DNA from: Isoetes taiwanensis
Lineage: Eukaryota; Streptophyta; Lycopodiopsida; Isoetales; Isoetaceae
Direction of reading: 5' to 3'
DNA length: 64,000 nucleotides
Assembly: GCA_021234155.1 (NCBI GenBank)
Contig: JAJEKV010000002.1
Coordinates: 18,591,592 to 18,655,591, forward strand
Shown here: positions 25,297 to 64,000 of the stretch, piece after piece
Layout: each line of letters opens with the position of its first letter
How positions within the stretch are numbered: position 1 is the stretch's first letter
Notes under the pieces: model-generated
The model's input: the letters and a program-made list of their open reading frames with translations, nothing else
The model's database searches: none
Told to the model about the DNA's origin: nothing
Made by a program: the position numbers and the translations under genes

Positions 25297-25311
25297 CCCG
25301 GGATTTCACCT
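25297..25311 (+). repeat. Left terminal inverted repeat of DNA transposon
   Basis: CCCGGGATTTCACCT matches the reverse complement of 51,378-51,392 (CCGGGGATTTCACCT) at 14 of 15 bases. A subterminal CATGTGC motif follows about 16 bp in, and CATGTGCGTG occurs inside the right end too. These may be transposase-binding motifs. Confidence 0.8.
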
Positions 25312-29200: not shown

Positions 29201-30910
29201 TCTTCAACCTAAGGACGCAAGCAAAAGAAAAGACAGACAAAATTGGCGGCTGCCCGCAGGATTGCCTCTCAAGAGTTCAAGTGTGCTTGAAGAAGCTACT
29301 AATGATCCAAAAACATAGTACCCAATGCGCATATTAGGGACCGACTTATCTCTACGCGGTTTCTCATATTGACATATTCCTCTCTCCTCACATGGATCTA
29401 TGGAACCGATAAGAGCAGCCAAAGACCGTGGTCTTTCTTGAGGTAGGTGTGCTTGATATCTATTTAGCTTTATAATTATGGTACCGGGAATTTTACTATC
29501 TTGTTGTTCTTGTCATATTGCAGGCTATGGAGACTTTGATATCAAAACATGAAACACATTGTTTGAAGACAAACTTCATTAGTCGTGAGACTTTTCCGAC
29601 ATTCAAATTTCTTGCCACTTTGTCGCCTTGCTCATAAAGTTTTTAGAGATTATCGAGGGAGCTTCGTCCCATTGGATGCCACAGTGGTCGATGCATGCAG
29701 AATTTCTTCTCAAAGATAGGTGGAATGGTTAGAACGAGAGATCCTACAATCGGGCTGATGTGCTTGATAGTGCAAGTGCTCTTAATCGAAAGTGGTCAAT
29801 TTAAGTCACTTGGGACCTTTGCTATTCTCGCAGCCCAATGTCAAACAGAAAACATTTGGCAAGTACTGAGAGGAAAGTGGATGGTGAAGACAATGAGTTA
29901 AAGTGTGACATGATATAAGGACAAAATGACATGATAGATGCACTAGAGGCGTGGATTTAGACATGCTAAAGAATTATGTGCACAAGTAGGCATCACTTGT
30001 GAGGAAGGTGGAGAGGAAAATTGGTGGAGCAAACCTTGGAAGCACGAAGATTTTTTCAACAAAGATTACTTCATGGAATTAGACACAACCATGGTGGGAG
30101 ATGAGTCGATGATGTGAAATGTAGAACAAGAGAATGATGATGGTATAGCCATCAATTCTCGACCGCCTAATGATGTTACATCACAACCAGAGTTAAGGCA
30201 TACCTTTGACTCCATGGTGGACGAGGTAGAAGCACCATCTCTGAAAGATCGAAAAGGAATGTGACTCTTGATAATAAAGCTATTTGTAGCGGGCACTTTG
30301 GTCAGCCAACTAAATGGTAATCCATGGTCTGTCCAAAGACATGATTGACAAAGGTCAAGCCGCAAAATCATTATAAGCCCTAAAACAAGTTAATAAATGC
30401 AGCCACCTCTTGAATTGATCGACCGCGCCATCTACTTTGAGATGGATTCCGTATAAAGAAAAGGCAAACTCGCGACGTAAAACAAGGAGGACGGATGCAA
30501 GTTTGGTATTTGGGAAGGGTACTTAGTATGCGCAGAAAACATGGGAGAGCATGGAAAGAAACTAGAGAGCCCAGAGACTTGGTTAATGCACCACCATACC
30601 CATAGAGCTTAATTTGGCCTTGGTATAATGAACATAAAGGTGTAGGAGGACGGGGTACACTTTCACCTTTCGAGATAGCTACAAATAATCTCACTAGACT
30701 CAGAATAGCACTAGCATGTTTAACATACAACCTGCATAATGGTAGATACCAGCTTGATGAGCATGATATGATGCAATTTCATAACTTTTTGGCTGATCAG
30801 AAAAAGGTCCCTATTATGTTGTTTTTGCACCGCGGCATTGCTGAAAATTGTGCTCACAAAATCTTGTTTTTCATTAAGTAAGAAATAAGGGCAAGGGAAA
30901 GATTGTTTGA
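26202..30910 (+). pseudogene. Transposase-like gene, unit 1 copy (broken)
   Basis: Collinear with the unit 2 gene at 44,463-49,215. Here the first coding exon is better preserved: a 157-residue frame (26,202-26,675) begins MAFETNIVISTIDGNEKC and contains a ubiquitin-like-looking segment with FVFLGERKLPLSARQEE, then a basic RRRRG stretch. The rest is split into short frames at 26,946-27,230, 28,348-28,825 and beyond, with the same splice sites as unit 2. The stop corresponds to TGA at 30,908-30,910. Most breaks fall at CAG/CTG/CG sites and may be sequencing errors. Confidence 0.6.
27270..27380. repeat. GCTGAAAT(N)TTT intronic repeats (unit 1)
   Basis: Several imperfect copies of a TTGCTGAAATCTTT-like unit sit in the proposed intron after the zinc-finger exon of the transposase-like gene. 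A cleaner version is at 45,540-45,640. Confidence 0.6.
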
Positions 30911-33900
30911 AGATCCCAGAAGATCATTAGTCGTGAGACGTAGTATGAAAATTGACATGAAAATAGATTGCTTATGCATTTGAGATACATAGTTATAGGT
31001 ATTTCTAGTTTGAAGATTATGGAGATGCATTGTTATGGAGGAGGAGCTGCCTTCTCAGAATGATTCTTGCAAAATGTAGATTTTGTGGCAAATCGACAAA
31101 CCAATAGCAGCTTGTATATTTGAATTGCAATTTTGCAATTTTGCTTTTTTGCTTAACTGCTTGTCAAGTTTAAGTTGAAGTTTAGGTGTTTTTTGGCGAT
31201 GGCCAGGTGTTTAAGTTGGTGTTTAAGTTGGTGTTTAAGTTTCCCAAGTTTCGCTTAAGTTGGTTTAAAAGTGTTTGCTTTTGGTTAGGGGACATGGAGC
31301 TCCATAAAAAAAATCGTAGATCGCTAAGGCGCTTGCAAAATGTGTTATGTGCCATTGGTTTGTGCTAGTTAAGCCCTCTTGGAGGAAAAGGAATGCAATT
31401 GTTCTTGTTCTTTGGTTTTTCTATACTCTATGTTTCCTTGAGTGGAGGTTCTTTTGTTTCTTCAGACTTTATTCTTTGGAGGAAAAGGAATGCATTGCAT
31501 TTGTTTCCCATTTGTTTATGCATTTTGTGGCATTCGTGATTTTGTGGCGATCCGTATTATGGTAAAGCCAATTACATTGTACGTTAAAGCAACCATATTA
31601 TATTATAAAGATCTGCTTTTAAAAAAGGTTGTGGCAGAATGAACCAACCTTTGCACTTTTTGTACAAAAAAACTCAAAATGTAATAAAAGTCCTCGTAAA
31701 TGATATGAGTTACGGTGGATATTAGCTACGTGATATTAGCTACGGATATTAGTTACAGATGAAAAAGTGCTACTGTGATTGTCCAAGATATACATGCAGC
31801 AGACACAACCTTTATTTCTTTTTCCGCATAAATGCAAGGCATTAAAAGTAGCCCTGAGGAGGCATCTTAAGAACCACTAAGAAGAATTCACGTCACCGAT
31901 GTTCACCTCGCAAATGACGCCTTCCATCTCCAACACGACAAGCTAATTTTGCACTTTCTTCAAACCTTAGCCCCTCGCTCCTTCAAATTTATTCACTTCC
32001 AAGCAGCTAAACTTGGCCACTAAAACCATCCGCATCCCCGCGGATGGCTAGAGTCAAAGAAGATTCTTCCAGCCTTTAGGTTTCACTGGCAGTTGAATTT
32101 AATCCTAGCCATTGAGTCAGCCGATATAAAACCCCAAACTGTATTGTAATATTCATAGTTGCTACCCCTACTGGCAGCATAATTACAATGTTCGAAAGCA
32201 GCCCATAGTAAACCTTACTAGTTATATAGGCGGGAGGTAGTCCATGAGACAAAGAATTGCATTCTCGAGTATTCTCTTATGAGTTAGGTATGACTTAATT
32301 TTAGATATACACTGAAATCAAACTTATTCAACAACATATGGAAGTGTTGGGTATGGAACCTGTAAACAAACTTATAAGAATTGGCAGATAATGATACCAA
32401 GATATTAAAGCAAAGTGACCAAATATTTCAAAAGGCCCAAATGTGAATAAAAAGCACCTTTTTAATCATTTTGCACGAGGACATGTGGATATAAAGTTGC
32501 AAATGGAAAAAAAAAACGTCTTGCACTTGTTTAGGAATGAATTTACTCATTACAAAAATGATGTCCTTTTCCTACTCCCTTTGATTCAATTCCAAAAGGT
32601 TAAGCCTCGGGTATCACATAGTAGATAAACAGAAATATCTTAAGATGTTCTAATTCAAGACTGCCTCTACCCACAGAAGACAATTCAAACAATTACAATA
32701 ATCAGCTTTCTGGGCCAAATTATGCTCTCCCATATAGCTTATTTACTCGCTTATAAAGATTATAAAGAGGAAAATTATTTAATGCATGTACTCCAGAATT
32801 TGATGTCTTGAGGATCATGCCATTTGGTAGATTTGTGCTGCTTCAAATTCTAACTCAATCACATTACTTTCCCTTTCTTCCTATTTTTACTTACTCCATC
32901 CGCATGTAGCCATAAGTACGGAACTTTATTATTGTTATTGGCAATGAACATGTCAATCCAACCGTGCATATGGGCAACCCAATGCCATGCTAGGAAACTT
33001 CAGTGATGTACATACAATGCATTTGGAGCCAGTTTAACCAAGTAAAGTGAAAACATCAACATGAGAGTAGCCAAGGTCCCGCAATACTTACATAACAATC
33101 AAGGAGCAAACCAAGCTGCGCATATGTTAAGCGCAATCCACGCCCACATGTACCCGCCTCCATAAATCAAGGGTCTTATAAATGGACTTATCCTTAAACC
33201 GTTAAAGAAGCAATGGACATTCATAAGCATTTTCACATCGGGTGAGAAAGGGGAAATGAAAAATATAAAAATAACGCTCATAAATGGAAGGAGTCAACTG
33301 AAATCAAAGGCACAATATAAAGAAGGAATCCAGCCAGTTGGTGTTGTTATAAAACAAAAATCATTGAGGGTTGAGGCAATCAGCTAATCAGGTTTACTTT
33401 AACATAGATCAGTAATATTAAATAGTACCATATCATATATGATGCTGCATTGCCTATTATTCCCATAAATGATTTTGAACAACAATACACCACAGCATTT
33501 CTGGTGGCACTAATGGCTCTTGTATAGATTTAAAAAGTCAACATGAGCAGGCCTACATTGAGTACCCAAGCTCACAAAGAAACCTCTTTATCTTAAACTT
33601 CTCCTATCTTTTATCTTTTTGTGACCACATAGATACTTTATAAAGAAACCATTACAGTCCAACTTTATGCACCCTGTTATTTTTGGTGCAGGAGCAGGAA
33701 AGAACTAATGTGAACAATGTAGCATTTGAGAGAAAATTTAACTGGTTGCATCAGTTTCAGGTAGGGACAACAAAATATAGACACTATAAATTAACTAGAA
33801 GATTACACACATGGTGCCAATGGCCTTTAAGCTATACACTAATTCAGAAAATGCTAGATGCTGCCAGTTCTGAGGCTGGATAACAGCTACAAAGAGCTAG

Positions 33901-37747: not shown

Positions 37748-39367
37748 TGTGACGCCAATATACTTGGCCGCCATACGCCGCCCCAAGTAGAAATCCCCTG
37801 GGCCCGGCCGACAAACCGCACAGCCTCTCGCCTATCCCGGTGACCGGAAGCTCCCAGAGGCGGGAAGGCGAGTATTACCTAAGGTGTTCCCGGCGCCGCC
37901 TCTTCCCTATGGGCTCCTATCATCACACCTAAGTTAGACAAACACGCCGTAACTAGCTACATCGAAGCAATATGCTACCGGCGGGTAGCTCAATCGCATA
38001 TCCATAGATGCAAAGAACATAATCATATGCCATAAACATGAGAGGTCCTACCCACCGGGACGCCGAAGGAAGTCGATCGAATCGATAGGCCTCAAGATAG
38101 AGCGCATCGGAATCACAACAATGGCTATGTGGGCCGGCATATAAGACAATGGCTAGGTTGACCACTCCATCACCTCCTCGTAGGTATTACTATGCATGGG
38201 GCTGTAGATCAAGTCGCGGGCATGACTTAACCTTCCTGGACATTTAACCATGGCCTTCACCCATCGACTACTCCAGTCATCTCCTCGTCCGACGAGGTAG
38301 AAGGGTTGCATCTCCCTTCCCGGGTTCAGGAGGCTCCACTCCGGCCAGAGGAATCGCGGTTCGCTATTATCACCCATCCACCGATCACCAACCTCGAAAC
38401 AAGAGCCAAGCTAACACTTGGTAACCTGGAGAGTGGCGGCCACCATTGCGGCCCTGTGAGGTGCTCACCCCATGCTCGCCCACACCAAGTGACCCCACCA
38501 CAAGCCTCCCAGCCTCCAATCGGTGATCCCTGGCCCCTCAATTTCAGGATCCACCCTCCGGCCTGCCTCCCATGGGGTAACAGCCACATCAGCTCCCATA
38601 GCCCCATGGTCTGCTGCACAGTCAAGAATTATATTAGGGAAACCAAGGGACTACACTAGGAGTTATTACCACACAAGGGCCTAGGTCTCTCACCTCCCAA
38701 AACACAAGAGGAAATGATGATCAAATCCTACTCATCACATAATCATCATCACTTAACGTAATGATCACATGAACATCTTAACCTAATCATACATATCTAA
38801 CTAATGTAGCTAGGTTCGATTAGGGTTCAAGATGTTCAAATGGTGCTGATCTTAGGTGGCTCTACTCTGATTGGCTGTAATTACCAACCCATCCGGAGGA
38901 CTAACTTCCGTGATGAACTAACATGAACCTCCCCCACCCAACTCCACCTCCCTCCAAGCGCCTCCCATCCCCGGCGCTCTGCCTCACGAGGTTCAAGACT
39001 TGCTCCCCTCAACGATCATACACACCTTCCAGGCCGCCGCCATGGGTTATGATTTAACCAAGGCTCGAAACGGGCCGCACTTAGATGAGAGTTCGTGCTA
39101 GGTCAGAAAGAGGTTTTAGTGGTTAGGTTAGAGCTACTGATAGATGTGGGTCCACATAGATGCCATGTGGCACCACTGTAGCTAGGCTTGTGGCTATGTC
39201 TCAATAGGATAAGTGGAAATGGCCTATTCCTTAAGGTTTATCTAAGTTAAGTAATTAACTTAGATGTGCAACTTTGCCACTTTCTAAGGCATACAAGGCT
39301 ACCTAGGTAGACTTCCATGGTGACGGTCCAGAATACTATTTATAGCGATATTCTGAACGGTCACACA
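37748..39367 (-). repeat. Gypsy 3' LTR (unit 2)
   Basis: It starts TGTGACG at 37,748 and ends just before TTCTCCC (the complement of the polypurine tract) at 39,368. It matches unit 1 except for many local differences in CG/CHG-rich stretches such as 37,755-37,900. Confidence 0.8.
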
Positions 39368-41756: not shown

Positions 41757-42323
41757 TTAGGTCGCAGGGAGAGTGGCTGGGGTGAAAAGATACCGAGGCT
41801 CGTGATCGTGATTCAACCGAAACTCCCCTTCCCGCCAGTCAGTGCTCCAAATCCCAGTGCCCTCGACAATGGCTAGGAGCTCCCGATCATGGTTGCATGC
41901 TGTTCTGGCCAGGCTGCTCATCTTCTTCGAGTCGTAGGCGACTACCCTTCTTGCATCAAGACCCGCCTCGTCATCTTGCTTGCATCCGTGGCCACAAGCT
42001 AGTTCTACTTGGGTCCGAAGGACGAGTAATCGTGAGCTGATGTTAAGGCCTCCTTGAAGCCAAAGGAAACTTAATTTTCTAGCCAACGCAGCCCAATCTT
42101 TCACCCAACGCCTTAGTGAGGTCCGGCCAAAGGGACGCCCACTTAGCAAAGTCCTTTTCACGAAACTTTCAGACATCCCCGCTAACCCAAGAAAGCTTCT
42201 TATCGCCACATTCCTGGAGCTGGCCAATCGACCACCGCTCAATCTTAGTCGGAAATCCCTCCTACCGACATTACACGGCCCAAGTACCCACCTTTGGGTA
42301 GCAAAGTACTTGGAGCTTGCCAT
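41757..42323 (-). CDS. Gypsy RT thumb and RNase H
   Basis: This 188-residue minus-strand frame is the longest pol fragment of the element. It contains FLGLAG, a conserved RT thumb landmark, then AYDSKKMS and HDRELLAIVE, landmarks of the Ty3/Gypsy RNase H domain, and ends near YLFT. The TDAS motif is obscured by indels. RT palm lies upstream (near 42,330-42,480) and integrase downstream, in the normal pol order. Confidence 0.8.
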   Translation of the reverse strand: MASSKYFATQRWVLGPCNVGRRDFRLRLSGGRLASSRNVAIRSFLGLAGMSESFVKRTLLSGRPFGRTSLRRWVKDWAALARKLSFLWLQGGLNISSRLLVLRTQVELACGHGCKQDDEAGLDARRVVAYDSKKMSSLARTACNHDRELLAIVEGTGIWSTDWREGEFRLNHDHEPRYLFTPATLPAT

Positions 42324-43550
42324 ACAAGCGATGTCTCAACTCTTTCCAACACCCTCAAATGCTGGATCATGACCTTCAAATGGACCTACCGTAGATCAGG
42401 GATGTCGCCGAAGAAAACAATGACAAACTCATCTAGAAATTCTCAAGACGCTGCTCATGAGGCGACAAAGTTGCTCGGAGCTGCTCAACAACCCAAAGGG
42501 CATATCAGTGAACCGCGACCATACCGCTGCCCGGCTATCTTATGGATCGTCCTTACCTTATCCGATGGTATCCCAATCTGGTCAATTTTGAGAATACCCC
42601 TGCCTCAGCCGGTCTTATCAAATCATCCTCGCACGCATACTATTCTTTACTGTCATTAAGCTGGATCATGAGTCTATGCACATTCTTAAGCTCCCATCTT
42701 TCTTCACAAAGAGTATAGTGCTCCAAAAAGGAGATATGTACTGCTTCAAACCCAAGCCTGCCAATCGAGCCGCTTCTTGAGTTCTACTCACCTCCCAGTG
42801 TCATCCCGGCGGTGCCTCGCAGCTTAGCATCCGGAGCTAATGTGATTTCACATTCTACACCGCAGGAAAATTGTTTTAGGATTTCATCCGAATACATCCC
42901 ACCGAGGATGAGCTCACCGGCCCGCAACCCATTCCTGATCGCCCACCCCGCTATTGGGCTCCCCGCCACTAACCTCAAATATAACCAATCTATTTTCTAC
43001 TTTCCTTAGGTGCTGACACCCATGGAAGGAGCTGCCTTCTTACCTTCACTATGAATTTGCGCCGCCCCGCCATTATGGCGACTGCTGGCGGTCACAATCA
43101 ATCATGGCTTTGGCTGGCTTCAAGCACCCGCTCAATATAAGGTCATACCCTCCAATTCCATGATTTCGCCCCATCGGCCACTTAGCTCACCATGCTCCAA
43201 TGATCCTCCTGAGGTAAGCCGAATGGCTACCGCTATTATAAAGAATCGGCCTTGGCTTAGACTTCAATACCTTTATTCTTCATTAGGGCAAACACCGAGA
43301 GGCGAAGTTATGAGAGCTACCCCGTGTCTATGAGGACTACACATGGATTACTATCTTATGATCCCATCAGTCATAATGACCGTATGGATCGATCCCTAAT
43401 ATCACCGACTCACGTGTTTGCACATATATGACACTCACCATCTATGAAGTCCTCAGTCTCTACGTCGCTGCCTTTCATCCGCCTGCTGGAGAATCCCAAT
43501 CCAGTTTCAAAAGTGCCTGCATGACTAATGGGCACCATGTCCTAGTGTCC

Positions 43551-51005: not shown

Positions 51006-51377
51006 TTCAAGCTTGAAGTATCCCCGGTACTTTACCACTAAGGGACACACTAAGGATGCATTAGAGTCTTAACCAACGAGACAAGCTTAGACCGAGAATG
51101 AAGATGACAAAATGTCTATTTGCGACGGACATTGTGAAATTTTTCCTTCTCCACAAACCATTTTTTTCTCGAATAAGGCTACGACACAAAATAAAGTACA
51201 AGATCGGGTAGGGGTATGTAAAAGCGTAACATAGTCCCGGCCATATATATCTGATAGGGGGCGTGGAAATTGGGTTTTATATTTACATTATGTAGGGGTT
51301 TTCGACCTCAAAAGTCGTGATATCTGAGGGGTTTTCTGGTGACCCCTTGCACGCACATGAGGTATCCCCATGTGCCT
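51006..51377. other. Right end of DNA transposon, no gene recognised
   Basis: Contains repeated (T/G)AGGGGTTTTC motifs (51,292, 51,329) like those near the left end (25,350, 25,420, 25,470), and CATGTGCGTG in the complement near 51,350. Nothing coding was recognised. Confidence 0.5.
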
Positions 51378-51392
51378 AGGTGAAATCCCCGG
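51378..51392 (-). repeat. Right terminal inverted repeat of DNA transposon
   Basis: AGGTGAAATCCCCGG is the inverted partner of 25,297-25,311 (14 of 15 match). It is followed directly by the target duplication at 51,393-51,401. Confidence 0.8.
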
Positions 51393-51401
51393 GGCTGGAA
51401 G

Positions 51402-52636
51402 CACCTGAAACAAAGCTTCTTCTCGATACACTCCTGTCTCTTCTCTTTCGTCGGGACTATCTAGGATACGCCAAGACTGCCGCCCCCGATGCATTTCGTG
51501 GTTTACGGTCCCCAAAGGTCTTACCTCGAGCCCTTTCATCTTTGCCGGCCCCTGGCGGCGTAAGGCTGCTGATTGCTTACTCCGGTATTGCCCTTGGTAC
51601 TGCCCTGAAGCTTTACTCTTGAAGGCCGACTGTTTCTCTGCTGGAGTTGATGGTGCTTCCTCCAAGCTTATAGCTTTGTCTTCGGCTTCTGCCACTGACT
51701 TTGGGTTGATTGCTCTAACAAGCCTCTTGATATTCTTTGTTCAACCCTTGATGTAGGTGTCAACCGCTTGTCTTTTCGATACTGCGGGAACATGGAGCAC
51801 GAGCCGCATAAATTCCCTCAGATACTTTGCTACCGACAATGTACCGGTTCACCTATATAACTGGCTGGATCCGGCCGCTAGTAATGCGATCTTGGCACAA
51901 AATGCTTGTGGAAAGCTTTGCTGAAGGTCTTGAATCTGCAACTGTTTCTTTTGAGCTTGTTAGACTTAGCATAGCCTTTCCACCAGATTCTAGTTTGCTC
52001 CTATCAAGTTTCTTTGTAGCAACTTTCCCTATATCTTTGTCCTTCATGCTATAAGAGTTGCCGAATTCTTCCATTTCGTCAAGCCATGCTTCTGCCTCCA
52101 TACCTGACCTATCCTTTCCTGAGAACTGACCCAACTTCCTTGTCTTCCACACATTGCTCATAGCACTGTCAACCTTCTTCTGATAGTCATCCGCCTTCCT
52201 TGCCCTGGCTCTTACCTGTGGAGTGTCGGACTCACTTCGAGCTAGAACTGTCATGGTATGCGGAAGTGTCGATGATGCTGGAGCTAGGTGGAGTTGGAGA
52301 TCTTGTTTCTCCTTTTCCTCTTCTGCCTCTCGACATTCCCACGATTATCTTGCCCTTCTGCCGTGGACCCTCCTCGATGCCTTGCTGAGGTAGCGGTGGA
52401 GGTGGTGGTGGAGCAGGTGCATATTCTTGGGCATTCATCAATGGGGTGGCCCAGTGGATCAGCTGGTGCATCTGGTTCCTCATCCGGACGAGCCTGGCGT
52501 TGATTGCTTCGGCGTCATATCGCCGTTTGTTGTCATCCCGATCCGTCCGAATAGGTTCCTGGGTATCCACTGATGTTGACGGCCGTGGCCTTGAAGACCT
52601 GAGCCGGAGTTCCTTGCTGCAAGGATTGATCATCAA
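51402..52636 (-). CDS. Gypsy Gag (frameshifted), interrupted in its zinc knuckle
   Basis: Three minus-strand frames (52,636-52,232; 52,254-51,853; 51,695-51,402) form one Gag. The first has a basic/polar N-terminus and a poly-proline stretch. The second has LGQFSGKDRSG followed by an AEAWLDEMEEF-like helix, the start of the retrotransposon Gag capsid domain. The third is a Lys/Gln-rich linker leading to C-F-R-C at 51,401-51,412, the first half of a CCHC zinc knuckle. The second half (P-G-H-G-H-M) is at 25,263-25,290 and near 43,530, on the other side of the inserted DNA transposon. Confidence 0.7.
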
Positions 52637-52837: not shown

Positions 52838-54278
52838 TCAACGATGTCGCTTGAAGAAGTTCTTGATTTTCTTGAATGTTGTGCCCTTCCCCATGTTCTG
52901 CAGGATTCTGGCCGCCGATCCTCCCTCCAATGCTCTTGCCAATTGTGGTGCCGGAAGTTCTGGCGCGGTTGCCGCCACTACTGACAAGTGCGCATCCCTG
53001 AGGTGGCCCCTTGCGAAGTCGAGGGCATGAAGGGCTACAGATCTTTTGAAGAGAATTACATGGTCCATCCCGAAATCTATCCTGGCGTGGTGTCCAAAGC
53101 CTGAAAGTGCTATGAGGAGCGCCACGGATTCTTCACCCCTTGGGCTGAACTCCTTGTGGAAGACTATCATCTGTCCCTGGCTAAGGGCCGGAAGATAGTA
53201 CCTGAGTGATTTACCCCTGTGCGGCCCCGTGGCTCCCGTACTCTTCCTTTGAGCTGCCTCGCCGAACACATCTATTGCGGTAAGATCTTCGTGGTCCCTC
53301 CACATCGTTGTTGCGTTCTCCAAATTGATGCTGCTAGATGATTCGCGCATACTCCTGGAGCGCACTGGTCGGCTGGAGCTTGGGCCTCTTCCCGGTTTGT
53401 ACAACCTGCTTTGGATTTCTTGAAACTCTTCTTCTGGGATGATGGGTTCCTGCTGCTGAAACATGTACCTAATCTGTTGATATGCCTGGATGTCCGACAT
53501 AGTTTCCCCTGCATAGGAGTGTCGCTCGGCTACCTCCCGTGGAATCTCTTGGTAGGAGTAGTCGATGAAGTCACTACCCTGCTCTTGTGCCATAAGGCTT
53601 AGGAGCTCATCGATCCTGAGGCCCTCCTCTTGGCAATAGGGAAGGTTAAGGATGTCGGTGGCGAATATGTACTCCTCGCCGTCGATGAATATGATGCCTC
53701 CAAGTCCCGCCTTAGTGCTTCCCCGCCTCTCCATCCTTCTTGCCTCCCTTATCTTCCAACTTGGGTTCTCTTCCTCCTCCTCTTCGTAATCCTCAATCGC
53801 AACATGGGTGCTTGTGATGTGAGGCAACGCCTTCGTGTGCCGAAGTCTCGATCTCATGGATGCTTATCCGGCTGCTGCCCGGGGTGTGATGCCCAAAGGT
53901 TGAATTGACGGCTCCCCGGTTGGGGTTTGCATGAATAAGGCTAAAAGTCGCTTGGTTTGAGTCTATGATGTTTACACGCCATGTAGTGGGCATGTTTCTG
54001 GTTCTATCCCAGAGCCTATTCTTGCCCCTGGATCCCCCACCTATGGCTTGGGTAATAGTGTCTAAGGAAACCCATTTCCCTCCCCTAGGTGGCAAGCTAA
54101 CTTCCCCGGGTAGAATGTGCTGATCATATTGGCAAATGATGTCAGTGTAGTAAGGAGTTCTAGTTAAGGTGGCATGAAGATCAAAGAGGTGATCAAAGAC
54201 ATGAAAGGCTTGCTCAGCAGGGAATTCACGGATGTGATTAGAATCATTGTACCATCTAACAAAGCTTGATGGTGCCAT
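52838..54278 (-). CDS. ORF-B: unknown ~470-residue protein upstream of gag
   Basis: Two overlapping minus-strand frames (starting at 54,278, and 53,857-52,838) join by a frameshift near 53,800-53,850. The N-terminal part starts MAPSSFVRWYNDSNHIREF and looks globular. The middle has a long acidic stretch (EDYEEEEEEN). The C-terminal part ends in a strongly basic tail (GTTFKKIKNFFKRHR). No known domain was recognised. It lies between the H3-like ORF and gag in the same direction. Ogre-type elements also carry an extra ORF before gag, but I see no clear similarity. Confidence 0.55.
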
Positions 54279-54570
54279 TGAGCAGAGGTGGCTATGAAAA
54301 ATGGTTGATGGAAATAAACAAAGGCCTAGGAAATCGCCAAAGGGCTGAGAGCAGTTCTGATGGGGAGAAAATGACAAATGAGGACCCTTTTTATAGACTA
54401 GGGGTGCCTCGGGTTCCGTGCACAAGGGTTCTTGATGAGAAAAGACCTCAAATCTATGGCCATGGGTGTCCAAATGAACTACCATGAAGTGCAATTCTAA
54501 GCAACGCAAAGCAAGAAACACTACATGGCAGTTTGTTGGGTCAAAATTGGTCAACTTTGGGCAAAATTGG

Positions 54571-54850
54571 GCGAAATCGGGTGGCGTCGCGAGAATTAGC
54601 TCTGCGTCGGGGGCGCAGACGCGTTTGTCGCGACGCGACCCGGTTTCGGGTCAATTTAATTTCTATGAGGGGTTTTTGGGAGTTTAGACATCCTAACATG
54701 ACTTTTCAGCATGCTTCTAACCTAACTAGCAACTTTTCTTACTTGAATTGGGCATGTATTGGCATCAAAATGCCGAAATCGGATGGCGTCGCGAGAAATG
54801 GCCCTGCGTCAAGGGCGCAGACGCGTTTTTCGCGATGCGACCCGGTTTCG
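54571..54850 (-). repeat. Two direct copies of a GC-rich hairpin unit between ORFs
   Basis: Copies at about 54,571-54,648 and 54,772-54,850 share GCGTCGCGA, CTGCGTC, GGCGCAGACGCG and TCGCGACGC. In the first, GCGTCGCGA (54,584-54,592) pairs perfectly with TCGCGACGC (54,628-54,636), and CTGCGT pairs inside with GCGCAG (54,602-54,618). The second has the same stems with one wobble. A repeated stem-loop between two ORFs could be an RNA packaging, dimerisation or translation signal. Confidence 0.6.
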
Positions 54851-55061: not shown

Positions 55062-56137
55062 TCAAGGCCGTTCCTTGCGGATGCGACGCGCCAAGTGTAT
55101 GTCCTTGGGCATCAAGGTCACCCTCTTCGCGTGGATCGCACAGAGGTTCCCTTCTTCGAACAGTTGGGTGAGCTTCGGCCTCGGCTGACCCTGCGGCACC
55201 GAGTTGTGGCGGCGTCACCCAGCCAGTGGGTGGCGAACTCTGCATCACCTCCCGCATGGCGGCTCGAGCGGCTTCTTCCCTAATCAGGAGATTAGTGCCT
55301 TTGTTGAAAGTGTCTAATCTCGGTTCATTCGGGGTGTATCGAATTAGGCCGTGATGGACCTTAACCCGGCTTCTCGTTCGTGGCGGCGGCGGCAGGCTGA
55401 TTCTTTGGTGGCGGCCCCCGGTCGTTGGGGCGTTTTGCGGCGGTACCAATCATTATACCTCGTCCGCAGAGCGGGGTATTCTGGTATGCTTTGGCGGGCC
55501 CGAGCATGCTCCTCCTAATAATGGCGAGCGGGCCTTTCGCCCGTATACCTTCTTGATCACCTTAGGTGGGTGGGCTTTGGGTAAAAGGTGGTTTTGGGTC
55601 AGCGGCCTCCTCCTGCTCCTCTTCCTTCCAACCTCCTCTTCTACCTCCTCCCGGGGTTCTTCAATGCCCGGCTTGTGATGCGGTGCGGCAGTCGTTCCTT
55701 CTCTTGGTGCGCCTCTCCTGCTCCCTCAGCTCCCGCTCTCTCTCTCTCTTCTTCCTTGCGGCCCTCTCCTCAGGCCACTCCCCAACCTTCTCCTTGCCCT
55801 TTTTCTTGGGCACTGAAGGGCCCGCTTCAGGAATGCAAGTTTGAGGCTTTGCTCTTGACCAGCTCTTCCACTGTTCTTCTACCTCGGTGTCCGAAGGCCC
55901 AAAGTGACGGGACTCTCCGGTTCTCTGGGTGCCTGCTGATGAAGAGCTACTGCTAGGTGCGTCCTCCTCAGCGTCGTGATAGGTGGCGTCATTCTGGCTT
56001 TGGAGGAAACTCCTCGTCGCGGCCGGCCGAAGAAGGTGCTTTCGGGGACCTTCTTGGCGTCTTGCCCTGTGCTTTACTGCGCCATGGAGAGGGTGGGCCT
56101 AGTGCGGGTTTCTGTAGGTTTGCTTGGTTCTTGCCAT
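55062..56137 (-). CDS. Histone H3-like protein encoded by the Gypsy element
   Basis: The ATG at 56,137 gives MARTKQTYR, identical to canonical H3 except Y for A at position 7 (counting after Met). A GKTPR and PRKHLL stretch follows, loosely like the next part of the H3 tail. A ~220-residue insertion comes next: Ser-rich acidic, then KKKGKEK and [13 protein letters not shown]. The fold starts near 55,390 with RVKVHHGL, then [11 protein letters not shown] (H3 helix alpha-1 KSTELLIR region), a damaged central helix and [18 protein letters not shown]. It ends [15 protein letters not shown] and TGA (55,062-55,064). The C-terminal ~35 residues align with H3 without gaps. It is the first ORF after the primer site, on the element's coding strand. 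Several frameshifts split it, mostly in CG/CHG-rich DNA. A captured and enlarged host H3 gene is the simplest explanation. Confidence 0.8.
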
Positions 56138-56705: not shown

Positions 56706-56717
56706 GCTCTGATACCA
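56706..56717 (-). other. Gypsy primer binding site (tRNA-iMet type)
   Basis: On the minus strand the LTR end GCGTCACA is followed by A and then TGGTATCAGAGC, the standard plant iMet primer site. It fixes the 5' LTR boundary and the direction of the element. Confidence 0.9.
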
Positions 56718-56718
56718 T

Positions 56719-56979
56719 TGTGACGCTCCCTGCTGAATATACGGCGCCCGGCCGTACGCTCGGCAGGAAATCCCCCGTCCGGCTCGACAACCGCACAGGC
56801 CCTCCGTCTATCCCGCACTCTGGAAGCTCCGTAGTGCGGGAAGGGGACACGAAGGTGTCTTGCGCGCCCTTCCCCTATGGGCTCCTATCACAGCGGAAGC
56901 ATAAACACGTCAGAACTAGCAATACAATACAATATGCTACCTCGAAGGGTAGCTCAATCGCATATCCATAGATGCAAAG
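56719..56979 (-). repeat. Gypsy 5' LTR, inner part (up to the Copia insert)
   Basis: Collinear with 19,274-19,520 of the 3' LTR. The LTR is broken after GATGCAAAG by the Copia element and resumes at 62,640. Confidence 0.85.
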
Positions 56980-57681
56980 TGTTATATATTATCATGCCAT
57001 TGTGAGAGGGCACCATTTGTTATTTGTTATATATTATCATGTCATAGATTGGTGTTGCAAAGTTGAGAGACCACGTGGACACAAAGTCGGTGAAAGACAT
57101 CTATAAAATAAAGAAAACCAGGAAGTGAACGTACCGGTGTGCATGGTATGATGAGCGATCGATAAAAGTAAGCGGGATGGAGTTCGGCCGCGACATGAGA
57201 CTTCTAAGAACAGAGCGGACCGACCCGGAATCGGTGGAAGAGATCCCTGGATACACGTATGGATGCAGATCGGCAGGGGAAGAAGACACGATTTGAGGAA
57301 GAACAGCAGGATTGAATCTGTGCAGAGGTATTGCGTTTGTTTTGCTTGATATCAGAGGTAGAGTTGCTCTTGAAATTTGCTTCTGGATTAGCTTGTGCTT
57401 GTGCAATTGGTGTCTGGATTTGTTGTGCTATTAAGCTGAAACGGAATTTAGATTCCGGAACAGGTTGGATCCAGCTGCAGGTTCCGCCGTGTGTTCCGCA
57501 GTGTTAAGTTCTATTTTGATTCGCTGCCAGCAAAGAATAAAGCTTGAAGTGCTTGCTGATGTTGAATACATCAGAAAACTTGATTTGAAGGAGAAGCATA
57601 GCTCTATGTTTGCGGGTAATTTTGTCATTGTTTTTGATACTTGTCGTGTGAAGAAATCTTTTGTTGGTGCCTATTTTAACA
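56980..57681 (+). repeat. Copia 5' LTR
   Basis: It begins TGTTATATATTATC and ends TTTTAACA, and is 702 bp long. It matches the 3' LTR (61,940-62,634, 695 bp) closely except at CG/CHG-rich clusters around 57,130-57,270. Confidence 0.9.
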
Positions 57682-57684
57682 AAG

Positions 57685-57699
57685 GGTATCGTCGAGCCA
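57685..57699 (+). other. Copia primer binding site (misread iMet type)
   Basis: GGGTATCGTCGAGCC, three bases after the LTR, is very close to the iMet primer site TGGTATCAGAGCC, with CAG replaced by CGTCG. The change fits the CHG-site errors seen across the window. Confidence 0.65.
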
Positions 57700-57713
57700 C
57701 CCATCAAGAATCA

Positions 57714-58589
57714 TGGCAACCAGATTTGGAGCCACATTGCTTAATAATAGACGTTTATCTGGCGGTTCGGATTTCAGGTATGGAAGGAGAAGATACAAGA
57801 AGTGTTAAATGCGTATGGGTTGATGGATATTGTGCGGCCTCCGGAAGGTAAGGAGTTGAAGGATATAATTGTCAAAGCCGGGTAAGATGAAAATTAGTGA
57901 AGGTGAGAGCAAAGGGGGAAGCCACTAGTGCTAGCAGTATTTACTCTGAAAATAAAATTAGAGAAGCTAGAGGAATTATATCATGTAAAGTTGGTTCTAG
58001 TATACTTTTAAGAATGCGTGGTATGGATCCTCAACAAATGTGGTCATATCTCATTAGTAAATATGAAAGAAAATCGTCATCACAATTGGATGTGCTAGAT
58101 AAGGAATTGAGACAACTAAAATATGTGGAAGGAGAAAATATCACGTAGTTTTTGCTAAGTTAGATAACATTTTTGCCGATCTAGATGCTTTGGTAGGGTG
58201 CTAGGCTAAGTGATGAATTTCAAGTGTTAGCCATATCACGTGCATTTTCAAGGTATGATGTATTGTCTACCTTAATTAGAAGCACAACTAAAAATCGTGA
58301 TGATGCAGAAAGGTTAGTAAGGACGGAACTTGAACAAAGAAAAATAGTTGATGAAGAAGAAGAGAGTTCTGAGGTATTGTTTATTGGAAAAGCAAAAGGT
58401 AATGTGGTTAAAAGGGATTATTCAGAAAAAACTGTAGGTCCATGTTACTATTGTTATGAAATGGGACATTTAAAAATTAATTGTCCAAAATTAAAGGAAA
58501 TGTCTTGTTATAATTGTGGAGGATTAGGGCACATCTCCACTACATGTTCTAGCCCCAAGAACTATAGTAAAGGGAAGAGGCAGAGCTGA
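57714..58589 (+). CDS. Copia Gag with two zinc knuckles (frameshifted)
   Basis: A start at 57,714 (MATRFGATLLNNRRLSGG) leads into a WKEKIQEVLNAYGLMD-like stretch typical of Copia Gag after a +1 shift near 57,780. The frames at 57,897-58,148 and 58,224-58,589 follow, the latter with two CCHC knuckles, CYYCYEMGHLKINC and CYNCGGLGHISTTC. The Gag would bind element RNA in virus-like particles. Two or three frame breaks are present. Confidence 0.8.
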
Positions 58590-58676
58590 AAAGAGGGGGT
58601 TATGTGTCAAGGGAAGAGGTAGCTCATCAAGGGAAGGGGAAGAAGAGGAACATCAAGAGTAAATATAACTCAAGAG

Positions 58677-60272
58677 GTGGATCACGAGCAGAATCGCGGA
58701 GAAAGAACCGACGATCAAGAGGTAAAACCATTTGTCTTATCAACGTGTGAGATCAATGAATGCTTTTCTAATGATGAGACTGATGTATTTATAGTTGATA
58801 GTGGAGCTGAACGATCAGTAGTGAACTGTGCTGATCTTCTGAATGGTGTTTGTTCTAGTAAACACTTAAGTCATGTACAGTTAGGAAATGGACATTTGCA
58901 GGAGGTAACCGGAAAAGGGATGCTGCAACTATTCGATTTGCAAGGAAATAATGTGGATATTTCCAATGTCCTGTGCGTTCCGGGGTTGTATAAAAATCTT
59001 ATATCAGTTTGTCAACTAGTTGATCTTGGATATGAGCTACGGTTTAACAAAGGAGGGTGTAAGGTATTTATGAATGATGAGTTAAGGTTTTTTGCAAAGC
59101 GTGTTGGTAATCTTTTTCAATTTTCAAATAAAGAGAAGCAAAGCATAAATATGTTAGCAGTCACTTCGGCGTCAGTTTGGCATAATAGACTTGCACATTC
59201 ACATATGAATAATATTAGATATATGATAAAGAAGGGCTTGATTGATGGAAAGAATGATGTACATGAAAGGTTTATTTGTCCAGGTTGTGTGTTAGGCAAA
59301 TTAACCAGGTTGCCCTTTAGCAAATCAATGAAGAGAGCAAAAGGACCCCTTGATCTTGTGCACACGGATCTTTGCGGACCATTAAATATACAAGGGAGAA
59401 CAGGTAAAAGATATTATATATCTTTTATTGATGATTTCAGTAGAATGGGTAAGTGTTATCTATTGTCCTCTAAAGATAAAGCTATAGATGCATTTAAGCT
59501 ATATGTAAGTGAGATGGAAAGGCAAACGGGTCGTAGACTCAAATGCATCAGGTCAGATAGAGGTGGAGAATATCTTTCGAGAATATTTAAATATTTTTGT
59601 TGCAAGCATGGAATAAAAAGACAGCTTACATGTAGGTATTCACCTCAGCAAAATGGTGTTGCAGAAAGAAAAAACCGAACGGTTCTAGATGCTGTAAGGT
59701 CAATGATTAAGTTTGCAGGTTTGCCAAATTATCTTTGGGAAGAAGCAGTGAAAGCAGCATTTTTTATACAAAATAGGCTACCGTCGAGCAGTTTGAATGG
59801 TAATATACCTGAAGAACTATGGTCAAATTGTAAGCTAACTCGCTCGTATGATTTCTTTAAAGCTTATGGTTGCTTGACATATGTTCATATTCCTAAAGAA
59901 ACAAGACATAAGCTAGATGATAGAGCAGAAATTGGTTTCCTAGTAGGTTATGATGAGGAATCAAAAGGCTATAGAGTATTTATGCCTGACACAAAGAAAA
60001 TAATTGTCAGTAGAGATGTTATGTTTGATGAAAACAAGTTCTATAAAGATAGACATGGGATACAACATCCAAAAATGGAGGTCAAGGATCATAGCTCTGA
60101 TAAATCCATTATTACGACTGATTTTGACTCGATTGATGATAAAAAGATGAGGAGGAAAGCGAAGATACCAATGAGGAAGGTGAAGGTGCGTGCCTATGCC
60201 TGCAGATTGAAAGAAGACAACACAAAAGAAAATCAAGTGGAAAAGCTAAAAGATATTGTGTATAGACTATAA
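58677..60272 (+). CDS. Copia protease and integrase (531-residue frame)
   Basis: Residues ~40-50 hold DSGAERSVV, the aspartic protease site. Residues ~168-215 are the pre-integrase zinc region (HNRLAHSHMNN ... CPGC). The integrase core follows with catalytic D in LVHTDLCGP (~residue 230), D in IRSDRGGEY (~294) and E in NGVAERKN (~329). The C-terminal part has KAYGCLTYVHIP and GFLVGYDEESKGY, usual Copia integrase landmarks. This long frame is intact and all three acidic integrase residues are present. It joins RT by a frame break near 60,260. Confidence 0.92.
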   Translation: MDHEQNRGERTDDQEVKPFVLSTCEINECFSNDETDVFIVDSGAERSVVNCADLLNGVCSSKHLSHVQLGNGHLQEVTGKGMLQLFDLQGNNVDISNVLCVPGLYKNLISVCQLVDLGYELRFNKGGCKVFMNDELRFFAKRVGNLFQFSNKEKQSINMLAVTSASVWHNRLAHSHMNNIRYMIKKGLIDGKNDVHERFICPGCVLGKLTRLPFSKSMKRAKGPLDLVHTDLCGPLNIQGRTGKRYYISFIDDFSRMGKCYLLSSKDKAIDAFKLYVSEMERQTGRRLKCIRSDRGGEYLSRIFKYFCCKHGIKRQLTCRYSPQQNGVAERKNRTVLDAVRSMIKFAGLPNYLWEEAVKAAFFIQNRLPSSSLNGNIPEELWSNCKLTRSYDFFKAYGCLTYVHIPKETRHKLDDRAEIGFLVGYDEESKGYRVFMPDTKKIIVSRDVMFDENKFYKDRHGIQHPKMEVKDHSSDKSIITTDFDSIDDKKMRRKAKIPMRKVKVRAYACRLKEDNTKENQVEKLKDIVYRL

Positions 60273-60984
60273 TCCAGAAATGTTTGGTAGATATGGTACA
60301 GGAAAATCTAGAAGAATAGGAAGACAACCAAGTAGATATCCTTCTTTGATGGCTGTGTTTGAACCCGAGACTCCTAGATCCCTTGAAGAAGTTCTTGGCT
60401 CAGAAAAGGTTCACGAATGGTTAAAAGCAATGCAAGAAGAGATGGACTCATTTAAAGATACAGGAACATATGAGCTAGTGAAATATCCAATAGGAAAAAA
60501 ATGTGGTTGGCAATAAGTGGATTTATAGAGTGAAAACAAACAGTGATGGGTCAAAAAAATTCAAAGCAAGATTAGTTGCGCAGGGATTCTCTCAAAAGAA
60601 AGGAATTGATTACGAAGAAACATACTCTCCCATAGTCAAATTAACAAGTATAAGACTTGTGCTAGCTTTAGCTAATGCCATGAAGCTTGAGGTACATCAT
60701 ATGGATGTAAAAACTGCATTCTTGAATGCAAGCTTGCAAGAAGAAATATACATGAAACAAGCACCGTGGATTTGAGGAGGGGATAATATGGTATGGAAAT
60801 TGCATCAAATTAGATCTACACGGTTTAAAACAAGCACCTAGAGAGTGGAATAAATGTATAGATGAATATCTAAGGGAGCAAGGGTTTGAAAACTTGAGAA
60901 TGATGGAAACTTATATATGTTTAGGAATGAAGGGATTTTTTGCATTATTGCTTTATATGTGGATGATCAGATAATGGCGACAAA
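60256..60984 (+). CDS. Copia reverse transcriptase, N-terminal part (broken)
   Basis: Frames at 60,256-60,516 and 60,503-60,775 give [20 protein letters not shown], then [39 protein letters not shown] and [20 protein letters not shown], all RT landmarks of plant Copia. The catalytic box reads Y-V-D-D at 60,956-60,967. Frame breaks occur near 60,510, 60,775 and 60,920-60,980. Confidence 0.85.
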
Positions 60985-61917
60985 TTGTATGCTTGCCTAG
61001 ATAAGTGCAAAGAAATTTTGAAGCAAAAATTTAAAATGACAGATCTTGGAGAACTGAAACAGTTTTTGGGTATTGAAATGAGCAGAGACAAGGAAAATAG
61101 GATGCTTAAACTGACACAGACAAGAAATATAGAGAATATGCTAAAAAGGTTTAGGCTTGAAAATGCAAATCCAGTGAATTCTCCTCTTGCAGCAGGATAT
61201 AAAATTTCAAGAGGGTTATGTCCATCATCAGAACATGAGAAGGAAGAAATGGAAAGTATACCTTACAGAGAGCTTATAGGATGCCTACTTTATGTAGCTA
61301 ATAGTACTCGACCAGACATTTCTTATGCAGTAAACTTATTGAGTAGGTACAATAATAATCCCGGCAAAGGACATTGGGTAGCCGCTAAAAGGATTTTAAG
61401 ATACTTAAAAGGCACTAAAGATCAGGGAATCACTTTTTGTTCCGACAACTTGACCCTGTTTGCATACTCAGATGCAGATTGGGCGGGTGATCTAGATGCA
61501 AGAAGGTCCACGTCTGGTTACGCCTTGATTCTAGCAGGTGGTATAATTTCATGGAGGAGCAAAAAACAATCGTCAGTGGCAATGTCATCTGCTGAAGCAG
61601 AATACTCAGCATCTTCTCTAGCAGTCAAAGAAATTGTCTGGGTTAGAAGGCTGTTGATTGAGATAGGTATATCACAAAATGACCCTACTACGCTCCTAAC
61701 TGACAGTCAGAGTTGTATTGCTATAGCAAAGAATCCGGTACATCATGAAAGAACAAAACATATCGAGTTGCATATGCATTTTATAAGAGATCTTATTGCT
61801 AGACAGGTAATAGTAATGCAGTATGTAGAAACTTCACATCAAGCAGCAGATATATTCACCAAGGCAATGACAGAGAAAAAGCTCGATATATACAAAAAAT
61901 TGCTTGGAATACAATAA
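60985..61917 (+). CDS. Copia RT thumb and RNase H (310-residue frame)
   Basis: It starts just after YVDD and includes FKMTDLGELKQFLGIEM, the GCLLYVANSTRPDISYAV region, and an RNase H domain with AYSDADWAGDLDARRSTSGY and SSAEAEYSASS. The first Met is not the true start; the frame is entered from upstream RT. It ends with a stop 20 bp before the 3' polypurine tract. Confidence 0.9.
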   Translation: MYACLDKCKEILKQKFKMTDLGELKQFLGIEMSRDKENRMLKLTQTRNIENMLKRFRLENANPVNSPLAAGYKISRGLCPSSEHEKEEMESIPYRELIGCLLYVANSTRPDISYAVNLLSRYNNNPGKGHWVAAKRILRYLKGTKDQGITFCSDNLTLFAYSDADWAGDLDARRSTSGYALILAGGIISWRSKKQSSVAMSSAEAEYSASSLAVKEIVWVRRLLIEIGISQNDPTTLLTDSQSCIAIAKNPVHHERTKHIELHMHFIRDLIARQVIVMQYVETSHQAADIFTKAMTEKKLDIYKKLLGIQ

Positions 61918-61930
61918 CAGTAATGGCATG

Positions 61931-61939
61931 AAGGGGAAT
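61931..61939 (+). other. Copia polypurine tract
   Basis: AAGGGGAAT directly precedes the 3' LTR start TGTTATATATT and is the expected plus-strand primer. Confidence 0.75.
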
Positions 61940-62634
61940 TGTTATATATTATCATGCCATTGTGAGAGGGCACCATTTGTTATTTGTTATATATTATCAT
62001 GTCATAGATTGGTGTTGCAAAGTTGAGAGACCACGTGGACACAAAGTCGGTGAAAGACATCTATAAAATAAAGAAAACCAGGAAGTGAACGTGCCGATTG
62101 TGCATGGTAACAAAGGAGCGATCGATAAAAGTAAGCGGATGGAGTTCATTTACATGAGACTTCGCAGAAGAGAGTTACCGACGCCGGAATCGTGGAAGAG
62201 ATCCTGGATACACGATGGATGCGGTCTACAGGGGAAGAAGACACGATTTGAGGAAGAACAAACAGGATTGAAATGCAAGTAGGTATTGCGTTTGTTTTGC
62301 TTGATATCGAGGTAGAGTTGCTTTGAAATTTGCTTCCGGATTAGCTTGTGCTTGTGCAATTGGTGTCCGGATTTGTTGTGCTATTTGCTGAAACGGAATT
62401 TAGATTCCGAAAAAGTTGGATCCACTGCAGTTCTCGCAGTGTGTTCCGCAGATGTTAAGTTCTATTTTGATTCGCTGCCAGCAAAGAATAAAGCTTGAAG
62501 TGCTTGCTGATGTTGAATACATCAGAAAACTTGATTTGAAGGAGAAGCATAGCTCTATGTTCTGTGGTAATTTTGTCATTGTTTTTTGATACTTGCTGTG
62601 TGAAGAAATCTTTTGTTGGTGCCTATTTTTAACA
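61940..62634 (+). repeat. Copia 3' LTR
   Basis: 695 bp, TGTTATATA...TTTTTAACA, followed by the CAAAG duplication (62,635-62,639) and the rest of the Gypsy LTR. Confidence 0.9.
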
Positions 62635-62639
62635 CAAAG

Positions 62640-64000
62640 AACATAATCATATGCCATAAAACATGAGAGGTCCTACCGAGGTGTTCGACGCGAAAGGAAG
62701 TCGTGGATCGGATAGGCCTCAAGATAGAGCAGAACCGAATCATAACAATGGCGGGGCTGGCATAAGACAATGGCTAGGGTTGACCACTCCATCCGCCCCT
62801 CCTGTGCATACTTTGCGGATGGGCTAGATCAAGCCGTGGCATGACTCTAACCTTGGGACACGCAATCCCATGGCTTCACCCATCGGGACTACCCGGGTTG
62901 CATCTCCCTGGTCCGGCGAGGTAGGAAGGGTTGCATCTCCCTTCCCGGGGTCTAGAGGCTCCCGAGGCTGGCTAGAGAATCGTGTCGGCACCCATTCGTG
63001 CCGACCGAACCTCCCAAACAAGAGCCAAGTCGACACTTGCAGCTTTTGAGAGGCGGGCACACCATTGCCCGTGAGGTGTGGGACCCATGCTCGACCCACT
63101 GCAAGTGACCGACCATAAGCCTAGCCCACTGTGGGATCCCGAAGCCCCCACTCCCGCGTGGGATCCACCCTCCATCTTGCCTCTAGCCCCGTTGTGGGGT
63201 GCCGAGTCACATCATAGCTCCCATAGCCCGGCTGGGTTCCTATGCCTGTGTCGCAATTATAATAGGAACTAAGGGATCTACACTAGGAGCATACTACATA
63301 TGGGCCTAGGTCTCTACCCCCTTCCAAACACAAGAGGAACAACATGATCAACCATCATCACATAATCATCATGAACAATATCATATGAACATCTTAACCT
63401 AATCATACATATCTAACTAACAGTTAGGGTTCCTTGATTAGGGTTCAAGATGTTCAACAAAGGATCTAGGGTGGCTCTACTCTAGACACAAAATACTAAC
63501 CCATCTGGAGGACTAACTTCCAGATGAACTAACATGAACTCTACCCAACCTACCTCCTCCAGGAGCGCTTCCTCCCATCCCTGGCGTCTCCATGCTCCTT
63601 GACGAGGTTCGAAGACTTGCTCCCTCAACGATCATACACACCTTCCGTGGGCGCTCAGTGGGCTATTGGGCTATGACGAACGGTGCTCGAAACGGGGTTT
63701 CGGGCACTTAGATGAGTGTCAGGTGCTAGGTCAGGGAAAGAGGTTTTAGGGTTAGGGTTAGAGCTAATATAGATGTGGGTCCACATAGGATGCCATGTGG
63801 CACCACTAGGGTTAGGCCGTGTGGCGGTTGCCCCAATAGGATAAGGCCATGTGGAAATGGGTCTTATCCTAAGGTTATCTAAGTTAAGTAATTAACTTAG
63901 ATGTGCACCCCTTGCCACTTTCTAAGGCATACAAGGCTACCTAGGTAGACTTGTATGGTGACGGGTCCAGGAATATACGTATTTATAGCGTATATTCCCC
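62640..64000 (-). repeat. Gypsy 5' LTR, outer part
   Basis: Collinear with 19,518-20,882 of the 3' LTR. It contains TAAGTTAAGTAATTAACTTA (from 63,881), a near-palindrome also present at 20,762 and 39,243. The window ends about 10 bp short of the LTR edge, so the flanking target duplication cannot be checked. Confidence 0.85.

Follow-up and report, generated by a model that had tools for sequence, protein, structure and literature searches.

The window analyzed here, a stretch of 64,000 nucleotides of Isoetes taiwanensis DNA, contains on its minus strand a broken copy of an open reading frame (ORF) with similarity to histone H3. It covers positions 55062..56137, with the ATG at 56137 and the TGA stop codon at 55064-55062, and it is the window copy of a group called family A. 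Coordinates and strand of this ORF had been given in a sequence-only reading and were found to be correct when the sequence was read again. The LTR, primer site, gag and pol around it were likewise all recovered. In element sense, the order within the window is 5′ LTR, primer site, H3 ORF, ORF2, gag, and Gypsy RT/RNase H.

The primer binding site, TGGTATCAGAGC, which we take to be a site of the initiator tRNA-Met type, is located at 56706..56717 on the minus strand, 580 nt before the H3 ATG. A single base separates it (56717-56706) from the LTR end (56719), which reads GCGTCACA. Repeat comparison showed that this 3′ end of the 5′ LTR occupies 56719..56979 (minus) and that the remainder, at 62635..64000 (minus), is truncated where the window stops. 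Between these parts lies a Copia element that is nested in the LTR on the plus strand (56977..62634) and the own LTRs of which are 91% identical. On the other side of the H3 ORF, an ORF2 remnant without a known domain lies at 52838..54650 (minus), with open stretches at 54650-53793 and 53863-52838. A gag remnant at 51288..52344 (minus) has no Pfam match and was assigned by its position and by its likeness, by eye, to the gag-pol start of another family A element (L063). The pol remnant at 41757..42335 (minus) was recognized as Ty3/Gypsy RT/RNase H, and the chromodomain region of the window copy is a decayed piece without a Pfam match.

The 3′ LTR is present twice on the minus strand, at 37748..39353 and at 19274..20882, the upper ends being approximate in both cases. 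The two copies belong to a tandem duplication of about 18.5 kb (13550-32116 versus 32123-50435, about 84% identical), and the duplicated unit consists of the pol half of the element, the 3′ LTR and 5.7 kb of genomic flank. The second copy of the pol half (20882..32116, minus) was found by repeat comparison and Pfam and contains pieces of RVT_1, RT_RNaseH and SH3_Tf2-1. A tandem arrangement of the type LTR-internal-LTR-internal-LTR was considered and rejected, as the same non-element flank follows both lower LTRs; because, in addition, a primer site follows only the upper LTR, it was the 3′ half together with its flank that was duplicated. The H3-ORF2-gag stretch (50435-56767) has no match elsewhere in the lower window. 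Among all copies of this study, both LTRs of one copy were observed in the window only.

Two further features of the window element were noted. Between H3 ORF and ORF2, two GC-rich direct repeats of 77 nt (54572-54648 and 54774-54850, 90% identical) carry CGCGACGC motifs and are partly self-complementary. Between gag and pol, at 44000-50500, there are open frames on the plus strand (e.g. 48442-49215, 257 aa, and 26199-26675 in the duplicated unit), which are perhaps another insertion into the element; four frames of this kind were scanned and gave no convincing Pfam match.

The opening of the ORF is H3-like, as had been reported, and only one of its first nine residues deviates from H3. The histone fold part (55065..55374, minus) was found by frame translation and alignment to be spread over three frames, and the H3-like pieces that were recovered are a frame at 55374-55240, the word LFEEGNL, and a C-terminal piece that includes the stop codon (55175-55062). 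The similarity of the C-terminus to H3 was thus upheld, but not the claim that its changes are only conservative, as nine of the last 37 residues deviate and some of these changes are non-conservative. Similarly, a charged linker is present where an insertion of about 220 residues had been placed between tail and fold, but its position is apparently at K9, within the H3 tail.

The proposed frameshift-tolerant alignment of the window ORF with H3 yielded a score of 166. Elsewhere in the window, on both strands, the scores did not exceed 45, with the exception of the ORF's own tail piece (47), and when these 1401 nt were shuffled 100 times with dinucleotide composition preserved, the maximum was also 47. 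The core histone profile PF00125 matched the unjoined C-terminal piece of 37 residues with 2.1e-13, and the window holds no H3 match besides this ORF. Taken alone, the tail piece (47) and the alpha-1 piece (48) show a slight excess over their backgrounds of at most 41 and 38, respectively; so close to background, these pieces gain their significance from the order in which they occur and from the open copies described below. Nine frame pieces were used to span the whole length, and with its fold in three frames the window copy cannot make the protein and is dead. A side observation concerns the H3 P0222 of the liverwort Calypogeia fissa, which has an additional stretch, LLIREEATDRAVRQFCLLIRRKGKARSKH, ahead of PFQRL. 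The REEA in this stretch is similar to the decayed window copy, not to the open family A copies, and is probably a matter of chance or of a retained intron. The best match of P0222 in the genome studied here has 88% identity over residues 88-159.

The 1.66-Gb assembly of the own genome, in which the window is G000:C1018:18591592-18655591, was searched with 639 nt of the window ORF as the query. From 997 first-look candidates, 40 places were scored, and all 40 matched, with 75–84% identity to the query (100% for the window itself). Other copies of the family thus carry the H3-like ORF, and the refuting outcome named in the sequence-only reading, its absence from every other copy, did not occur. 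The number 997, like the 8705 of the profile search below, denotes first-look candidates, not verified copies. Thirty family A loci were read, including the window copy (L001); all copies were chosen through their H3, and the counts apply to copies of this kind.

A primer site was found 550–583 nt before the H3 start with at most one mismatch in 28 of the 30 loci, and it was exact in 26. The protein starts with MARTKQTARK in 15 of the 30 loci, and the sequence diverges from the H3 tail beyond these residues. Another variant of ten residues is present in six loci, and the remaining starts comprise the window copy's own variant and eight further ones, two of which lack an ATG. Six loci (L002, L006, L010, L016, L018, L026) are open all the way from the start codon through the fold, with 360–369 codons, and 24 are not open throughout. 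The family A protein begins with MARTKQT(A/Y)RK, continues with about 230 residues of charged linker, and has the H3 fold at its C-terminus. The leader that separates the H3 ATG from the primer site (569–721 nt) was examined in ten copies (L002, L006, L010, L014, L016, L018, L019, L024, L066, L067) and contains 6–11 upstream ATGs, so that translation of the H3 ORF may need a spliced leader, leaky scanning or re-initiation.

A second family, B, was found when the genome was searched with PF00125, a profile that also covers H2A, H2B and H4. This search gave 8705 first-look candidates, of which 150 were scored, all above the cut-off; about 55 of them, counted by eye, have open frames of at least 300 residues. 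The 30 loci that were examined out of the 150 included 15 canonical host H3 genes (136 residues, four fold variants), 14 members of family B, and one short locus (L049) that could not be placed. One family B copy (L051) has a stop codon inside the fold. Seven of the 14 family B proteins were inspected in full; three of these (L048, L052, L056) are open for 456–474 residues, and the others are shorter. Their layout comprises some 340 N-terminal residues, which start with MPRFKLTVDLKKLSVFQLF or similar, a remnant of the H3 tail (RTKHPSTGGK or similar), and a fold close to canonical H3 that terminates with RRIRGDFR or RRIRGEFR. The tail remnant is internal in the inspected copies, and they do not have a free H3 N-terminus. 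The unplaced locus L049 (G000:C907:39770035-39770364) has a fold near host H3, but its words SDANLC and MTKDLQ match, or nearly match, family B.

Both families have kept features that are typical for H3. The profile PF00125 matched an open A copy with 1.4e-29 and an open B copy with 3.5e-44, and the best PDB matches of an open A protein were H3 chains (3.2e-30). When an open A copy is aligned with H3, similarity beyond the linker begins again near R8-K9, in a weak stretch (TVEGGRPPKNQ versus KSTGGKAPRKQ). The point from which the PDB alignment resumes suggests that the linker was set into the H3 tail at about K9. For contacts with DNA and between the two H3 molecules (H3-H3′), we assumed the position lists known from nucleosome structures, with R116 on both lists. 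Nine of ten DNA-contact positions have the H3 residue in no fewer than 13 of the 14 A copies, and the tenth, F84, is replaced by V in all 14. In family B, eight of these positions are kept in 14 of 14 copies and R49 in 13, and K64 is replaced by R in 13. At the ten H3-H3′ contact positions, A (14 of 14 copies), B and host have the same residues, and loop 1 has the canonical length in both families. The most changed part in A is helix alpha-2, in which one A copy (L016) and one host H3 share 18 of 30 residues.

With the window ORF as the query, a protein database yielded 1115 matches among 7982 scored candidates; the 120 matches that were listed bear histone domains, and five that were inspected are proteins with several canonical H3s. 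The fold alone had 343 matches among 360 candidates; 20 of the 120 listed ones were inspected and turned out to be ordinary H3s or H3 variants. No match to region 175-337 of the window ORF was obtained among 6217 candidates of the protein database, and the plasmid and viral collections gave no match.

The element context was analyzed for seven stretches of 9.9 kb, all with a long open H3 ORF, namely L061-L064 around the A loci L002, L006, L008 and L010, and L065-L067 around the B loci L052, L048 and L056. ORF2 and/or gag-pol ORFs follow the H3 ORF on the same strand in all seven (for L062, this is clear for ORF2 only), and an exact primer site precedes it in six. Pfam matches to RVP_2, RVT_1 and RT_RNaseH were obtained for L063 of family A. 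In L067 of family B, the first ORF matched Ty3_capsid, Retrotrans_gag, RVP_2 and RVT_1, and the second RT_RNaseH, Integrase_H2C2, rve, SH3_Tf2-1 and Chromo (PF00385, 6.3e-8, above the cut-off). The order of RT, RNase H and integrase is of the Ty3/Gypsy type, and a single element thus contains everything from the H3 ORF through gag and pol to the integrase chromodomain within 9.9 kb. The chromodomain after the integrase was seen in this one B copy, the A stretches ending before that region. By eye, it is devoid of two of the three cage aromatics, as is the case in type II domains, and it therefore need not bind methylated H3. Downstream of the H3 ORF in L066 (reverse complement 6319-6941), a second LTR-like stretch was observed besides the upstream one, which is perhaps a nested or neighboring LTR. 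Among the Pfam matches of the seven proteins scanned there was no hAT domain, the context being one of LTR, gag and pol.

ORF2 had no Pfam or NCBIfam match in one A and one B copy, and no PDB match in the B copy. Its A and B versions are homologous to each other, with 23% identity (2e-16, L066) and 22% identity (2e-5, L065). The identities between A and B are 57–68% for the pol proteins and 51–52% for the H3 fold, and at the DNA level the LTR side, fold and pol match at 67–81%. The simplest reading of these similarities would be a common ancestor of A and B that already had the arrangement LTR-H3-ORF2-gag-pol. In the H3 tree, A forms one clade (100/100), nine of the ten B rows form another (98/95), and L049 stands apart. 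A joint H3 clade of A and B (AU test, p 0.555, without L049) is compatible with one capture as well as with separate captures.

Purifying selection across copies, a check that had been proposed together with the ORF, was evident. For the fold of 14 open A copies (91 pairs), pN/pS was 0.080 (95% interval 0.026–0.154) at a pS of 0.164; DNA similarity had led to these copies, of which those with an open fold and flanking motifs were retained, and the open-frame filter also lowers pN somewhat. Six whole A ORFs yielded 0.221 (0.128–0.342) for the tail, 0.225 (0.164–0.304) for the linker and 0.189 (0.064–0.393) for the fold, the last being a weaker estimate than that from 14 copies. For comparison, the values were 0.252 (0.194–0.320) for pol in three A copies and 0.159 (0.080–0.261) for ORF2 in two copies. 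The variability at codon positions 1, 2 and 3 was 0.031, 0.012 and 0.091 in the 14 open A copies, and 0.140, 0.134 and 0.187 in the other 16, a flatter pattern as expected of drifting dead copies. For the fold in family B, pN/pS was 0.077 in 14 copies (L049 included, L051 excluded), which is biased downward because the B copies were those with the best PF00125 scores; three extended B copies gave 0.112 (0.037–0.230) for the fold and 0.255 for the N-terminal part. The host H3 genes had a value of 0.040. Judged by these ratios, the constraint on H3 within the families resembles that on the element's own enzymes. Between the groups, the uncorrected ratios were 0.377 (0.283–0.486) for A-B (pS 0.76), 0.294 (0.205–0.400) for A-host (pS 0.93) and 0.123 for B-host (pS 0.96); as synonymous sites are near saturation and the ratios higher, long-term constraint is less sure than constraint within A. 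It was also observed that pS in the six A ORFs is much lower in the fold (0.11) than in the tail (0.50) or the linker (0.33), with a similar tendency in three B copies (0.19 versus 0.39). This suggests gene conversion or a constraint on the fold at the RNA level.

Taken together, chromovirus-type Ty3/Gypsy elements of this genome carry an H3-type gene, which is the first long ORF after the primer site and precedes gag, and it is under purifying selection; of this we are highly confident. Its presence in many copies, at a fixed place, in two families and under purifying selection suggests an accessory gene that has been conserved in a chromovirus lineage rather than a one-off insert. Taken on its own, the window copy, broken and the sole H3 match of the window, could have been the result of a single insertion, between primer site and gag, of an H3 gene or pseudogene of the host. 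The identical arrangement in 28 of 30 loci refutes this explanation with near certainty and backs the argument against a simple host H3 gene in the sequence-only reading, and a host fragment inserted once is equally contradicted by the sharing of H3 between two Gypsy families and by the purifying selection. A host H3 might instead have been captured once and then copied along as a neutral passenger without a function. Gene capture is common in plant transposons, LTR elements included, in the available text of one survey (PMC7264820), and 24 of the 30 A loci are broken somewhere. However, a pN/pS of 0.080 for the A fold, values of 0.19–0.23 across all three parts of the ORF, which are in the range of pol, and the presence of H3 in two families with 57–68% identical pol speak against a passenger, and this explanation was rejected as very improbable.

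A descent from centromeric H3 (CENH3), which would direct the element to centromeres, was also considered. Plant CENH3 contains words like HFQ..TNLLI and VTLM, and these words are shared with the element H3. The loop 1 of CENH3, however, is longer than canonical, whereas it has the canonical length in A and B, and the best 60 of 176 PDB matches are all H3s of the canonical type. In the tree, the single CENH3 row falls outside, which is weak evidence as this row has a long branch and the root of the tree is for drawing only. We rejected this origin as highly unlikely. Two further explanations accept a function for the gene. One is that the H3 fold serves as a packaging or structural factor outside nucleosomes, i.e. 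as a DNA/RNA-binding or dimerizing module associated with the cDNA or the interior of the virus-like particle. It would be in line with the location of the gene next to gag, the kept DNA-contact residues, the large and partly charged linker and N-terminal part, and the fusion of the B fold to an unrelated N-terminal part. Yet, the best-kept parts are the positions of the H3-H3′ bundle and the last helix, which are needed for tetramers with H4, and a packaging factor would not need the free MARTKQTARK tail found in 15 of 30 A loci; we consider this role unlikely. The same tail, exact in these 15 loci and present as one variant in six more, could act as a decoy, with K4 and K9 soaking up H3 methyltransferases, readers or chaperones, so that silencing is weakened and the fold is a mere carrier. 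But family B has kept the fold although its tail remnant is internal and without a free H3 N-terminus, and in A the pN/pS of the fold is not above that of the tail (0.189 versus 0.221, with overlapping intervals). We give the decoy, too, a small chance.

As a whole, the explanation that we judge best, and consider probable, is that of a retained element H3 gene, which was captured from the host, the product of which enters nucleosomes, and which changes chromatin in favor of the element. The maintenance of an own H3 version over a long time suggests that the element uses the protein to handle host chromatin. A host H3 would have been captured before families A and B split. Its fold would pair with host H4, and the protein would enter nucleosomes, as it is the tetramer and DNA surfaces that were kept. 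For this entry into chromatin as the mechanism, our confidence is tentative and somewhat below even. Most likely, an H3 with an altered tail and a bulky linker would be placed on element or target DNA, and such placement might shift silencing or integration to the element's benefit. Weakened silencing and biased integration would both fit as this benefit. A more specific and quite unlikely version is that the chromovirus makes its own H3 variant, placed in chromatin, together with a chromodomain integrase that could favor nucleosomes with that variant. The two cage aromatics missing from the L067 chromodomain speak against a simple scheme of mark and reader.

The sequence-only reading had known of no described LTR element with an H3 gene, and searches of the open-access PMC literature did not reveal one either among the titles and abstracts listed. 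An H3 on a transposon is in itself known, and to our knowledge this is the first retrotransposon lineage that keeps one. The closest precedents are H3-like genes (H3L) on hAT DNA transposons of Dothideomycetes, described for Pyrenophora tritici-repentis (PMC3538342) and for Pseudocercospora fijiensis and relatives (PMC6710886) in the available text of these papers. There, too, an H3-like gene multiplies along with the transposon that bears it, and the Pyrenophora copies likewise have tail insertions and a variable fold (PMC3538342). However, these carriers are DNA transposons, and in the same available text the Pyrenophora copies are nearly identical and those of P. fijiensis inactivated by RIP (PMC3538342, PMC6710886). 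In contrast, the gene described here is carried by a retrotransposon, lies before gag in element sense, and is under purifying selection in two diverged families. In Paracoccidioides, regions unique to strains are enriched in histone domains, and no carrier element is named in the accessible part of that study (PMC3203195). Additional internal ORFs (eORFs or aORFs) occur in many family copies of plant LTR elements, and their role is described as not known in the accessible parts of two studies (PMC6317226, PMC7264820), which is similar to the present case. In these partial texts, the eORFs are heterogeneous, with 21.4% of eORF proteins resembling known domains (PMC6317226), and the additional ORFs are most often located between pol and the 3′ LTR (PMC7264820). 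The ORF found here differs in being a recognizable core histone upstream of gag. In other respects the element resembles plant chromoviruses as presented in the available sections of PMC6317226 and PMC3350952, i.e. in its tRNA-Met primer site, which most chromoviruses use (PMC6317226), in the order gag-PR-RT-RH-INT, and in the SH3-like and Chromo domains after the integrase; none of the chromoviruses in these sections is named as an H3 carrier. The word "histone" is absent from the main text of a 2026 review on gene capture by plant transposons (PMC13317346). For the chromodomains of plant type II retrotransposons, the same sections of PMC3350952 and PMC6317226 report that a partner has not been found so far.

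An element-made H3 would be a testable candidate for such a partner of type II chromodomains. If the combination of H3 variant and chromodomain were true, the element would mark or recognize its own landing sites or hide its copies from silencing. In genomes of this kind, histone counts and H3 profile searches will be swamped by element copies. The families would also represent a natural experiment on how far H3 can be rebuilt, with about 230 residues set into its tail, and yet stay useful. With a core histone of its own, a genome parasite would have a direct means to counter silencing at the level of chromatin.
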